Below, piece after piece: positions 21,527-42,837 of a stretch of 64,000 nt of DNA. Origin of the DNA: Actinomycetota bacterium (GTDB lineage: Bacteria > Actinomycetota > Acidimicrobiia > Acidimicrobiales > Ilumatobacteraceae). Under the pieces are notes generated by a model that searched no databases, was not told where the DNA came from, and was given only the letters and a program-made list of their open reading frames with translations. The DNA is taken from the NCBI GenBank assembly GCA_009703125.1, contig WLGS01000002.1, positions 1-64,000 on the forward strand. The letters are read 5' to 3'. The stretch's first letter is position 1. The number at the start of each line of letters is the position of its first letter. The position numbers and the translations under genes are program-made.

Positions 21527-21811
21527 GCTGCGTCTTTCAGTCGTGTGGGCTCAGTGTAAATGCTTGCGATTACCGAAGCCGTGAAGTGATGTATATAGAT
21601 AATGTTTGTAATAAGGGCTGTGGATTGTGGATGAACTACATCTAAGCCTTGTGGTTGGTGGAAAGACCATGTGCACGGCCAGGTGTGTGTTTTCACATCT
21701 TTCATCGGTGCAACTTGGTTGCTTGTGGAAGACAGGGGGTTTATGCCCTGTTCCTCACAAGTGCCCCACACCGATGTCCCCATGAAATTCACAGCCACAA
21801 TTCCTTGTTTT
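21527..21811. other. oriC: dnaA-dnaN intergenic region, origin candidate
   Basis: 285 bases without a gene. Two DnaA-box-like sequences on the minus strand overlap by two bases: TGTGGATTG (21619-21627) and TGTGGATGA (21626-21634; one mismatch to the consensus TTATCCACA read on the other strand). Just beside them is an AT-rich stretch at about 21585-21613 containing GTATATAGATAATG, which could be the unwinding element. A further weak box is at 21724-21732. This is the classical actinobacterial place for oriC, but the box number here is low. Confidence 0.5.
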
Positions 21812-23182
21812 CTATGAATTCTTGATGCGGCCGATGATGTCGGTCACTTGGTCGAATGTGGCTTTGTCCTCACGCATGAGGCGCTGGGTCTTCTCTACGG
21901 CATGAATCACGGTGGTGTGATCACGGCCTCCAAAGAGTCGAGCGATGGCGGGATAGCTCAACTCGGTCATGTCGCGGAAGACGTACATGGCGATCTGGCG
22001 AGCCGACACCAAGGGGCGCTGACGGGACTTACCCTTCAGGGCCTCCACCGTGAAGCCCACATATCCCGCGATCTCGGCGAGCATTTCCTCGTCGGTGCGG
22101 TGCTTAGGAGCTGTTGCGGTGAGAAGGTCGGCCAGTTGTTGTTCCGCCATGGTGATGGAAGGTGCTTCTCGGGTGAGGTTGGCATAGGCCGTCACTCGGA
22201 TAAGGGCACCCTCTAATTCACGGATGTTGGAGGTGATATTGGTGGCAATGAACTCCAAAACGTCATCTGGCAAGGGAGTGTTGTCCCTTTCGGCCTTATT
22301 TCTCAAGATGGCGAGGCGAGTTTCCATATCTGGGGGCTGAATGTCGGTAATGAGGCCCCAACGGAAGCGCCCGCGGAGTCGATCTTCGAGGGTGGGGATG
22401 GCATCTGGCATTCGGTCCGACGAGATAACGATCTGTTTGTTGGCTCCGTGGAGGGAGTTGAAGGTGTGGAAAAACTCCTCCTGGAGACCCTCTTTTCCTT
22501 CCATGAACTGAATGTCATCAATGAGCAAAACATCCACGTCTCGGTAGCGACGTTTGAACGCCGCGGTGGTGTTTGTGCGAATCGCGTCGACGTATTCGTT
22601 CAAGAAAGTTTCGGTGGAGACATAACGCACTTCGTAGTGCGCGTAGTGCGCATGCACGTACCAACCGATTGCTTGCAAGAGGTGTGTCTTGCCAAGTCCG
22701 GCTGAACCGTAAATGAACAGAGGGTTGTACGAACGCGCAGGAGTTTCGGCAACGCGCAATGCAGCCGCGAGTGCGAACTGGTTAGAGGCGCCCTTCACGA
22801 AGTTTTCAAAGGTGTAACGAGGATTGAGGCCAATCACGTTTCCCTTGCCGTTATTGGGTTGTACGGCTTTTTGAGGCGCTGTCTCCACATCGAGATCATC
22901 GATGTCGTCAAGAACTGTGTCGTCGGCTAACGCCACATCGCTGATGTCGATAATCAGCTCACGATCGCTCTCACCGATCTCGTCGAGAGCGTCGATAACG
23001 AGAGGTCTGTAGCGAGTCACGATGCGATCACGCACGTGTGCATTAGGAACTTGCAATCGCAAAGAATCGTCTTCACTTGTCACAGCGACAACGTCATTGA
23101 AAGTGGAGTACCAAACTCCCTCTGACACTTGTGCTTTGAGAAGTTGTGCCGTGGCATTCCACACTGCTTCGTGGTTGCTCAT
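21812..23182 (-). CDS. dnaA: Chromosomal replication initiator DnaA
   Basis: 456 residues. Domain I occupies about 1-85 and an acidic linker about 86-115. The AAA+ domain has Walker A GSAGLGKT (159-166) and Walker B LLIDDIQF. The C-terminal DNA-binding domain contains [13 protein letters not shown], the DnaA signature. The frame stays open far upstream, but the ATG at 23182 has a perfect AGGAGG six bases before it and gives the normal family start. DnaA-box groups flank the gene on both sides, suggesting autoregulation. Confidence 0.98.
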
Positions 23183-23435
23183 CTTGTGCCTCCTCAGATG
23201 TCGTCCACAACACAATCCACAGGGTGTGGATATGTGCTCCGGGCGAATTGCCCGGATAGACGAAAGTAGCAGTACCTGTGGATTGTGCAAATTTGAGCGT
23301 CTCAGGTGCCCTACGTTGCATTTCGTGGGGTGGCGCCCGTTAGCCTTGTGGAAGGTTTTCGTCTCGTGCCGCTGGCACAGGAAGACCTCCATAGACCTCG
23401 CGCTCCCTCGTGGAGCTTGTCCCATAGGAGCCGCC
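23183..23435. other. dnaA-rpmH divergent region with DnaA boxes, origin candidate
   Basis: 253 bases at the point where transcription diverges. DnaA-like boxes: TCGTCCACA (23201-23209, plus), CAATCCACA (23213-23221, plus), TGTGGATAT (23225-23233, minus) and TGTGGATTG (23277-23285, minus). Each differs from TTATCCACA by one or two bases. A 7-bp inverted repeat TCCGGGC-GAATT-GCCCGGA (23238-23256) sits between the third and fourth boxes. The region must also hold the dnaA and rpmH promoters. It may act as part of oriC or as the autoregulated dnaA promoter. Confidence 0.55.
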
Positions 23436-26592: not shown

Positions 26593-26608
26593 TGTTTCAC
26601 GTGAAACA
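26593..26608. other. parS site 1
   Basis: TGTTTCACGTGAAACA, an exact match to the universal ParB-binding 16-mer palindrome. Confidence 0.98.
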
Positions 26609-26632
26609 TTCCTCGTGTCAAAATCTTCCAAA

Positions 26633-26648
26633 TGTTTCACGTGAAACA
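26633..26648. other. parS site 2
   Basis: A second exact TGTTTCACGTGAAACA, 40 bases after the first. Confidence 0.98.
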
Positions 26649-26685
26649 TTGTGGGGCTACCCGAGATGGGGGCTCAGAGAAGTGA

Positions 26686-26701
26686 TGTTTCACGTGAAAC
26701 A
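26686..26701. other. parS site 3
   Basis: A third exact TGTTTCACGTGAAACA, 53 bases after the second and 85 bases before parA. Confidence 0.98.
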
Positions 26702-26719: not shown

Positions 26720-26728
26720 TTGTCCACA
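26720..26728 (+). promoter_or_regulatory. DnaA box in the parA upstream region
   Basis: TTGTCCACA, the DnaA-box form favoured in actinobacteria, lies 19 bases after parS 3 and close to the likely parA promoter. It could let DnaA influence parAB transcription. Confidence 0.5.
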
Positions 26729-26786: not shown

Positions 26787-27581
26787 ATGAGCGCATCTGA
26801 CACAGTCGTTTTAGCCATCTCTCTCCAAAAGGGTGGGGTCGGAAAGACGACAACGGCGATCAACCTTGGCGCTGCCCTTGCGGAAATGGGCTTTCGCACG
26901 CTGATTATCGACTTGGACCCACAGGGCAATGCTTCGTCCGGCCTGGGTGTAAACATCCCTGAAGACGCCCCCACCATCGCTGAAGTTCTGCGTCGCGAGG
27001 AAACCCTCGACGCGATCGTGGAGCCCACTGCCGAGAAGAATCTCTTTGTTGCCCCCGCCCCGAAAGGCCAGCAACTCGCTGAAGTAGAAGCCCAGCTTGT
27101 AGCCGAGATGTTCCCCCAGCCTCGTTTGAAAGACGCCATTGACGCATGCCGTGAGGATTGGGACTACATCTTGATGGATTGCCCGCCTACCTTGGGTCGC
27201 CTCACAGTGAACGCCTTTATGGCAGCAGACGCCATTTTGGCTCCGGTGCAGTGTCAGTACTTCGCACTTGAAGGCCTGCGCGATCTCAGCGACGTAGTGC
27301 GTCAGGTGCGTTCCGCATTGAATCCAGATCTTGAAATTGCCCACTATTTGTTGACGATGTCGGAGTCTTCAAAGAAGTTGTCGCAAGAAGTGGAAGCAGA
27401 GTTGCGCACGGCGTTCACCGACAAGGTGTTCAAGAGCGTGATTCCCTACAACGTGAAATTGGCGGAAGCGCCATCGATGGAGATGTCTGTGTTGAAGCAC
27501 GCATCTACTTCTAAGGGCGCCAAGGCATATCGCGCAGTCGCAAAGGAGTTGAGCCATGGCAGAACGCCGAAAGCTAGGTAA
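26787..27581 (+). CDS. parA: Chromosome partitioning ATPase ParA (Soj)
   Basis: 264 residues. The deviant Walker A KGGVGKT (about 15-21), the switch LIIDLDPQGNASSGLG and DYILMDCPPTLG are intact. ParA forms ATP-bound dimers on the nucleoid, along which ParB-parS complexes move. The stop lies within parB, overlapping it by 26 bases in another frame. Confidence 0.97.
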   Translation: MSASDTVVLAISLQKGGVGKTTTAINLGAALAEMGFRTLIIDLDPQGNASSGLGVNIPEDAPTIAEVLRREETLDAIVEPTAEKNLFVAPAPKGQQLAEVEAQLVAEMFPQPRLKDAIDACREDWDYILMDCPPTLGRLTVNAFMAADAILAPVQCQYFALEGLRDLSDVVRQVRSALNPDLEIAHYLLTMSESSKKLSQEVEAELRTAFTDKVFKSVIPYNVKLAEAPSMEMSVLKHASTSKGAKAYRAVAKELSHGRTPKAR

Positions 27582-28476
27582 GGGTCTCTCTACCCTTATT
27601 CCTACAGAACGTACGGAGAATCCAGCACCAGCTCCCGCGGGCGCAACACCGGCTGCACCGGTGGCTGACCTTCCTGCATCTGCGTTACGTGATGTGCCCA
27701 CCGGCTCGATTGAGCCGAACCCGAATCAGCCTCGTGTGCACTTTGATGAGGACTCATTGAAAGATCTCGCCAACTCCATTAAGGAAATTGGCATCTTGCA
27801 GCCACTCCTCGTGCGTGAAGTGGGGCCAGGAAAGTATCAACTCATTGCAGGTGAGCGCCGTTGGCGTGCGGCCCAAAAAGCCAAGCTGACTGAAGTTCCC
27901 GTGGTGGTACGCGAGATTGACCAGCTCGGCTCCGTGGAACAGGCTCTTGTAGAAAATCTCCACCGTCAAGATCTCACGCCTTTGGAAGAAGCATCGGCGT
28001 ACCAACAACTGGCAGATGACTTTTCTCTCACACACGAACAAGTGGCAAAGCGAGTGGGGAAGAGCCGAGCCGCTGTCACCAACGCGTTGCGACTTTTGAC
28101 GTTGCCCGCAGCGGTGCAGGGATATTTGGCCGATGGCCGTCTCTCGGCAAGCCACGCTCGTGCTCTCTTGGGATGCGATACGTCCAAAGAGATGGAGAAT
28201 TTGGCCGCACTCGCTGTGAAAGAAAGCTGGTCTGTACGCCAGACAGAAGACGCTGTTCGCGATGGCGTCCCTGGCGCACCGGCAACTCAGCCCAAGTCCG
28301 CACCATCGAGCCCAAGTCTGAAACCCGCGGGATTATTGGAGCTAGAGAGCCTGCTTGCTGAGTTCCTCGACACCAAAGTGGGGGTCTCCATGGCGGGCAA
28401 GCGCGGGCGCATCTCCATTGAGTTTGCTGACCTGCTCGATCTTGAGCGGATTTATCGCCGCATGGCCGAGAAGTAA
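27556..28476 (+). CDS. parB: Chromosome partitioning protein ParB
   Basis: 306 residues. The N-terminal LGKGLSTLIP motif stimulates ParA. The CTPase/ParB-box region has GERRWRAAQKA and ENLHRQDLTPLEEA. The helix-turn-helix is LTHEQVAKRVGKSRAAVTNALRLL, and a C-terminal dimer domain follows. It binds the parS sites just upstream of parA and spreads as a CTP-dependent clamp. A Pro/Ala-rich linker follows the first 20 residues. Confidence 0.97.
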   Translation: MAERRKLGKGLSTLIPTERTENPAPAPAGATPAAPVADLPASALRDVPTGSIEPNPNQPRVHFDEDSLKDLANSIKEIGILQPLLVREVGPGKYQLIAGERRWRAAQKAKLTEVPVVVREIDQLGSVEQALVENLHRQDLTPLEEASAYQQLADDFSLTHEQVAKRVGKSRAAVTNALRLLTLPAAVQGYLADGRLSASHARALLGCDTSKEMENLAALAVKESWSVRQTEDAVRDGVPGAPATQPKSAPSSPSLKPAGLLELESLLAEFLDTKVGVSMAGKRGRISIEFADLLDLERIYRRMAEK

Positions 28477-28518
28477 TTTTTTCGGGTCAATTAGCCCCAA
28501 AATTTCAACGGTGTAATT

Positions 28519-28592
28519 TTTTCCACAGGATTCAACCACAACTGAAGGTTGAGGGTGAAAATTGTCCACATCTGTGGATGACCTGTGGATAA
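28519..28592. promoter_or_regulatory. DnaA-box cluster in the convergent parB/cwlM gap
   Basis: Four boxes in 74 bases: TTTTCCACA (28519-28527, plus), TTGTCCACA (28562-28570, plus, perfect actinobacterial form), TGTGGATGA (28573-28581, minus) and TGTGGATAA (28584-28592, minus, perfect). The genes on both sides end here, so no promoter needs DnaA at this place. Possible roles are an auxiliary origin element or a DnaA titration site. Confidence 0.65.
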
Positions 28593-29576
28593 CTAGGCCT
28601 CGCTAGTGGGATCGGCAAGCCATGCGGCCAGCGCCTGATCAATGGCCGCCGACAAGGCATTGGTCTTGAGAGCAACAACATCGCTTGGTCCCATGGAACA
28701 CAACACAGCGTGCATGCGCGTCTCGCGCAACACAGGATGCCGCACGCCTTGCACGTGCACAGATAATTCGGGAACGCGTGCGCGTATTGCAGATGCAATG
28801 TGATGTGCCAAGTTGCGACCACCCACACTTGTAAACGTGGGCACTTCATAGAAATAGATCGTGCAACTCGGCGCATCTGCATCTTCAACACCCACGTACA
28901 CATCTGCAGAAAATCGATTCGCTGTCATTGCTTGTGTGGATGCATCAGAGTCCACAGTGGTGGTGAGTGGATGTTGTTCACGTACGCGACGCGCAAGCGC
29001 ATGAGCTAGTGCTGCAACACCTGGGAAAAATCCCACCACGACGCGTGCGGCGTCTGTGTCGCTGTGAAGAGCCAAATCAATTGACTCACGCACAAGTGCA
29101 ACGCCGGGACCTTCGCCTGTTTGAGAACTCATGCGTTTGATGTGTTGCACAAGTTCTGGCGTGCAAATGCCATTTGCATCCACACCAATATTGGTTTGGA
29201 AATCAGAAATAGCATCCACTGTTAACGGGCCAAAAATGCCGTCAACACGCCCGCAATTAAAGCCCAATCTGTTTAAAAGCGTTTGTAATTCGGCAATATC
29301 GTCGCCACGAAGATTGGGCGTGCGCAAGAACAACAAACGCTCACCTAACACCCACGACGCTTCAATGAGTGCAGACCATGTCTGATCATCACATTCACCT
29401 GTGGTGCGTAGACCATAGGAATCTTGAAAAGCAACAAGTGCCGCATGCGTGCGCGCACAAAAGGTTGCATCTTCGGCGGCACCTGGTGCAAGGAAACCCG
29501 CTGCAGACAATTTGCGCTGCAGTTCATGTACCGCAGGACCGCGGTGCCCTGGACTTATGAGGAAGCGGGAAGAAAT
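28593..29576 (-). CDS. cwlM: CwlM-like protein: two peptidoglycan-binding domains and a degenerate amidase domain
   Basis: 327 residues from the proposed AUU start. Two PG_binding_1 modules (about 8-75 and 85-145; GHRGPAVHELQRKL and RGDDIAELQTLLNRLGF) precede an Amidase_3-like domain (about 155-320) recognisable by ANRFSADVYVG and HPVLRETRMHAVL. All expected zinc and catalytic positions are changed: no DPGHGG, GVEDAD where SIHAN is expected, and CSMGP where VELGF is expected. Mycobacterial CwlM at the same locus regulates MurA rather than cutting wall. No ATG, GTG or TTG precedes the first domain. AUU at 29576 has AGGAG eight bases upstream, inside trxA; the first ordinary start, TTG 29510, would cut the first domain. 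Confidence 0.8.
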   Translation of the reverse strand: MSSRFLISPGHRGPAVHELQRKLSAAGFLAPGAAEDATFCARTHAALVAFQDSYGLRTTGECDDQTWSALIEASWVLGERLLFLRTPNLRGDDIAELQTLLNRLGFNCGRVDGIFGPLTVDAISDFQTNIGVDANGICTPELVQHIKRMSSQTGEGPGVALVRESIDLALHSDTDAARVVVGFFPGVAALAHALARRVREQHPLTTTVDSDASTQAMTANRFSADVYVGVEDADAPSCTIYFYEVPTFTSVGGRNLAHHIASAIRARVPELSVHVQGVRHPVLRETRMHAVLCSMGPSDVVALKTNALSAAIDQALAAWLADPTSEA

Positions 29577-42762: not shown

Positions 42763-42837
42763 TTATCCACAAGAGCCCAGTGCTATCCCCAGCACAATCC
42801 ACAAGGATTTCGCAGGGTTATCCACTAGCAATCCACA
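42763..42837 (+). promoter_or_regulatory. DnaA-box array upstream of dnaB
   Basis: Four boxes on one strand in 75 bases: TTATCCACA (42763-42771, perfect), CAATCCACA (42795-42803), TTATCCACT (42818-42826) and CAATCCACA (42829-42837). A weaker CTATCCCCA lies at 42783-42791. They fill the rplI-dnaB gap, so DnaA probably binds here and may control the helicase gene. Confidence 0.7.

Follow-up and report, generated by a model that had tools for sequence, protein, structure and literature searches.

A conserved three-box DnaA array at the 3' end of parB in Acidimicrobiales: a candidate satellite DnaA-sequestering site

What would DnaA do at a junction where two genes end and neither begins? The question is raised by a stretch of 64,000 nucleotides from an Ilumatobacteraceae genome of the order Acidimicrobiales (contig WLGS01000002.1, positions 1 to 64,000; hereafter the window). 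A preliminary description had placed four DnaA boxes at 28519-28592, two perfect and two near-perfect and in facing orientation, at a convergent junction near parS and parB, and had proposed an origin submodule, a datA-like titration site or a DARS-like element. We confirmed the positions of the boxes and their directions (> > < <, where > is forward and < is reverse). The count of perfect boxes holds against the Escherichia coli consensus TTWTNCACA (two of four perfect, two one-off), whereas against TTATCCACA one box is perfect and three carry one mismatch.

The box cluster and its surroundings

In this region gyrA, gyrB, recF, dnaN and dnaA lie on the minus strand, followed on the plus strand by rpmH, yidC, jag, rsmG, three parS sites, parA and parB, and again on the minus strand by the genes for a CwlM-like protein, trxA and trxB. 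Such a gene order is the usual actinobacterial origin neighbourhood. The DnaA encoded in the window has the canonical domains (Pfam). Because the cluster sits between the parB stop codon and the end of the CwlM-like gene, the junction is indeed convergent; parB is directly upstream and the three perfect parS sites are 1.9 kb upstream. The features of the junction are as follows.

26593..26701, plus strand: three perfect parS sites (26593, 26633 and 26686), by sequence match
27556..28476, plus strand: parB (Pfam ParB_N, HTH_ParB), the upstream neighbour, which by synteny stays linked to the array
28519..28527, plus strand: outer DnaA box D, TTTTCCACA, found in many genus members, not order-wide
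28562..28592, plus strand: core three-box DnaA array, ><< with 2-nt spacers, TTGTCCACA-tc-TGTGGATGA-cc-TGTGGATAA
28562..28570, plus strand: DnaA box A, TTGTCCACA, genus column identity 0.889
28573..28581, minus strand: DnaA box B, TCATCCACA, genus column identity 0.933
28584..28592, minus strand: DnaA box C, TTATCCACA, perfect, adjoining the stop codon of the downstream gene, genus column identity 0.956
28593..29510, minus strand: gene for the CwlM-like protein, the convergent neighbour, with two peptidoglycan-binding domains (Pfam PG_binding_1)

Boxes with at most one mismatch numbered 27 in the window, compared to 11.3 expected. The four boxes within 74 bp are its densest cluster, and 200 Markov-shuffled windows never placed more than two boxes in such a span. 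A chance origin was rejected on the box excess, the shuffled windows and the control windows described below. The conserved part of the cluster is its last three boxes (28562-28592), which form a regular array spaced by one turn, with one forward box facing two reverse boxes; the preliminary description had missed this regularity.

Other motifs were observed in the window. At genus junctions a genus-conserved motif, CAACGGYGTAR, precedes box D (approximately 28503-28518 in the window). A lone TTGTCCACA box lies at 26720-26728, just 3' of the parS sites and before parA. Just upstream of dnaB, at 42763-42837, are four co-oriented boxes (TTATCCACA, CAATCCACA, TTATCCACT and CAATCCACA), which may mark a DnaA-controlled promoter.

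Conservation of the array at parB

We located ParB in genomes sampled at five ranks (genus, family, order, class and phylum), extracted the stretch past its stop codon, and scored 392 three-box layouts (eight orientations, each spacer from 0 to 6 nt) without preference. In the genus, the best layout was ><< with spacers 2,2, at a mean of 4.6 mismatches of 27 versus a layout average of 11.6. For both the family and the order, ><< with spacers 3,3 was the best of the 392, and it was again the best in 40 held-out order genomes (8.4 mismatches versus an average of 12.7). The layout test gave no array at the parB 3' end in 20 held-out genomes of other orders.

An array was called at no more than 7 mismatches over the 27 box positions with spacers of 2 to 3 nt. 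Positive junctions amounted to 19/21 in the genus, 39/42 in the family and 43/60 in the order, in total 101 of 123 order sequences. Since three family genomes were read twice, this corresponds to 98 of 120 Acidimicrobiales genomes, a count inflated by kinship, although the order sample spans some 50 families; the mismatch score is a crude proxy for affinity, and several of the genomes are incomplete. About one-fifth of the order genomes had no clear array. With the same cut-off, none of 60 other actinobacteria had an array at the parB 3' end, and only 2 of 1,140 control windows passed; the sister orders have the convergent parB junction and lack the array. Among named relatives (Ilumatobacteraceae and other Acidimicrobiales, a set overlapping the main sample), 73 of 80 carry it. 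The preliminary description had asked whether the boxes might be absent from related genomes, and in most of the order the three-box array is kept.

Within the genus, boxes B and C (identity 0.93 and 0.96) are better conserved than the coding ends on either side, 0.84 for the final codons of parB and 0.74 for those of the next gene. Base use fits the tolerance of DnaA boxes, with a nearly fixed CACA end and more variation at positions 3 to 5. The window's array has spacers 2,2, and 3,3 predominates among relatives. With a profile built from the parB arrays of other genomes, the parB junction was the best or second-best match in the whole genome for 11 of 12 other-genus genomes scanned (all but G222); the profile scored the junction of the genus itself lower because the spacers there are 2 nt.

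The array is kept where the CwlM-like gene is absent and trxA follows (e.g., loci L060, L090 and L092), and also ahead of an apparently co-directional gene (L091; in genome G197 the large open frame that follows points the same way as parB). Regulation of the downstream gene was rejected, as the array outlasts loss of the CwlM-like gene and is kept beside an apparently co-directional neighbour. No match to a promoter-like site was found at the parB junction. Together with the order-wide conservation, these observations fit the earlier view that a transcriptional role is unlikely, and they give good sequence support to the junction as a putative DnaA-binding locus distinct from a promoter.

An RNA hairpin or terminator was also rejected: pairing between boxes A and B was at the level of shuffled partners (0.729 versus 0.729), and no terminator-like site was found at the junction. 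RNA pairing is possible, but a hairpin is not what is kept, because the facing boxes A and B do not covary. A plasmid-borne element was rejected as well, there being no similar DNA in plasmids. Several public metagenome-assembled contigs titled 'Bifidobacterium breve' (L240-L242, L254, L260, L266) encode close relatives of this ParB and look mislabelled. Our search of the literature on Acidimicrobi* oriC and DnaA found no earlier description of the parB-side array.

The same trio at dnaA and crgA, and the probable place of the origin

Exact cores of boxes A to C in the array layout occur at exactly two sites in the genome, the parB junction and the front of dnaA. Among the remaining strong genome-wide matches of the profile, several clustered at an additional location, the 3' end of crgA (Pfam CrgA).

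21585..21634, plus strand: probable oriC unwinding element in the dnaN-dnaA gap, an AT-rich trio-like stretch followed by boxes, gataatgtttgtaataagggc and then TGTGGATTGTGGATGA
21812..23182, minus strand: dnaA (Pfam Bac_DnaA, Bac_DnaA_C)
23201..23233, plus strand: mirror-image array >>< before dnaA, TCGTCCACA-aca-CAATCCACA-ggg-TGTGGATAT
L334, about 1578-1610 (in the genome of the window, G000:C74 near 55089): crgA-side trio >>< with spacers 3,3, by layout scan

The array in front of dnaA, >>< with spacers of 2 to 3 nt, was present in 12/13 family genomes, 14/18 order genomes, 14/17 genomes of other orders in the class and 15/20 genomes of other classes. It is thus conserved across Actinomycetota (L054-L133), and in the window it lies close upstream of the dnaA ribosome-binding site. 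The boxes upstream of dnaA resemble the parB array in trio geometry, as its mirror image, and in the 2- to 3-nt spacers. They differ in that they front the dnaA start codon and are found phylum-wide, whereas the parB array fronts no gene and is specific to one order.

At the crgA site, >>< with spacers 3,3 was the best layout in the order (26 genomes) and in nine class genomes of other orders. This satellite trio is seen across class Acidimicrobiia (L339-L374), including orders without the parB array. A trpG/pabA-type gene and the gene for a PASTA protein are beside it, with a thiolase gene adjoining, and it lies tens to hundreds of kilobases away. In a Streptomyces genome, several boxes lie behind crgA and a cluster lies between serS and pheA (L321, about 1440-1790; L369, 873-1118); these may be published Streptomyces clusters.

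The preliminary description had looked to GC skew for the exact origin, but the skew within the 64-kb window is too flat to place it. A repeat of the trio type beside boxes is what one would expect of a DnaA-trio unwinding element, and class-wide the dnaN-dnaA gap has a TAGTAGTAATAAG-type repeat followed by TGTGGATTGTGGA. By eye, we saw no unwinding element or DnaA-trio at parB junctions. Because the trio-like stretch and its boxes are in the gap, the sequence places core oriC most likely there, approximately 7 kb from the parB array. The gap thus appears to be the origin proper, and the proposed origin submodule at parB is unsupported as core oriC.

Candidate roles of the parB-side array

Boxes beyond chance expectation, conserved and outside oriC make the parB array a DnaA-box cluster of the general kind known outside oriC, to judge from sequence. 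The best explanation, which we hold with moderate confidence, is that it serves as an origin-proximal satellite site for sequestering DnaA, with a function like that of datA or of the Bacillus and Streptomyces clusters. Spaced by about one helical turn, and with the first opposed to the second and third, the three boxes would accommodate a small cluster of DnaA molecules some 7 kb away from the unwinding element; binding of DnaA here is predicted from the boxes. Since it adjoins oriC, the array would be copied right after initiation, and its doubled sites would therefore withdraw free DnaA and help prevent a second initiation, a mechanism already proposed for datA and for the Bacillus and Streptomyces clusters. 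The promoter-free intergenic gap would keep the DnaA complex away from regulated transcription. In this way the array would probably help set the frequency of chromosome replication.

For titration, sites close to oriC are favoured (PMC12371093). DnaA-box clusters outside oriC hold back initiation in both B. subtilis and S. coelicolor (PMC5742627, PMC13220808). Those clusters (Okumura 2012; Smulczyk-Krawczyszyn 2006, cited in PMC5742627) lie outside oriC and their deletion affects initiation; a fixed trio geometry or a conserved position at parB is not known for them. E. coli datA resembles the parB array in being a cluster of DnaA boxes in non-coding DNA, located in the origin-side part of the chromosome. 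Its essential boxes, however, run in one direction and it needs IHF (PMC5742627), which binds between its boxes; in the compact parB array box A opposes B and C, and the 31 bp leave no room for such a site. The earlier datA-like proposal is therefore plausible as a function, that is, sequestration near the origin, and not as to box directions. Against sequestration, three to four boxes are a weak sink unless binding is cooperative, and the array is not clear in one-fifth of the order genomes. The fixed orientation and spacing suggest more than passive titration alone.

A rival reading is reactivation of the DARS kind, in which ADP-DnaA molecules bound to the opposed boxes A and B would meet head to head, lose their ADP, exit as apo-DnaA and reload ATP. 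The hallmark of a DARS core is box I opposed to boxes II and III (PMC5742627, PMC8682772, PMC10380432). When we measured DARS1 and DARS2 from the E. coli K-12 record, both were ><<, the orientation of the parB array, with spacers of 5 and 3 nt; like the array they have three boxes and are not promoters, and the second spacer is that of most order members. The first spacer differs, 5 nt versus 2 to 3 nt here, which alters distance and helical phase, so by spacing the array is not a DARS although its orientation matches. E. coli DARS also lie far from oriC, whereas some 7 kb separate the parB array from the dnaN-dnaA gap. Relocating DARS1 to a place beside oriC raised the origin number in E. coli, while datA works near oriC (PMC5010248). 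Since the array adjoins oriC, sequestration or inactivation is favoured over reactivation. The same trio before dnaA further suggests a general DnaA platform. Of the earlier DARS-like proposal, the box orientation thus stands, and the spacing between boxes I and II and the distance from oriC do not; we consider reactivation unlikely.

The mirror-image arrays flank the dnaA-parB segment, approximately 5.3 kb apart, and DnaA bound at both could pair through domain I and loop the origin together with parS. Domain I of actinomycete DnaA dimerises and may link distant clusters, but its self-affinity is weak (PMC13270200), and the similar crgA array lies far outside the segment; such bridging seems quite unlikely. 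We find it equally improbable that DnaA forms a roadblock that ends transcription and shields each convergent gene from the other. Nearly every junction is convergent, with no intrinsic-terminator match, and the crgA array is also at a gene 3' end. Conversely, G197 keeps the array with the next large open frame running parB's way, the same geometry is found before dnaA, and sister orders have the convergent junction without an array. Very unlikely, in our view, is a split oriC with the parB array as its outlying half, assisting the loading of DnaA at the unwinding element. Split origins do occur in some bacteria, and the array is close to oriC, but sequence resembling an unwinding element was seen only in the dnaN-dnaA gap, whose layout the sister orders share without the parB array.

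Satellite sequestration accordingly remains our preferred account. In actinobacteria, as in other bacteria that lack the E. coli set of DnaA regulators, the means of limiting initiation are a largely open question in the field. A deeply conserved array of fixed geometry, found beside dnaA and crgA and, in a single order, beside parB, offers defined sites for tests of DnaA titration and nucleotide exchange, and sister orders with the same gene order and no parB array provide a natural experiment. A broader idea, to which we give little credence, is that one standard three-box platform serves Actinomycetota as a movable regulatory unit, placed at dnaA, at crgA and, in Acidimicrobiales, also at parB, changing the nucleotide state of DnaA in a DARS-like manner and tying initiation to segregation and division genes. 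If true, this would make it the first switch of its kind beyond Proteobacteria.
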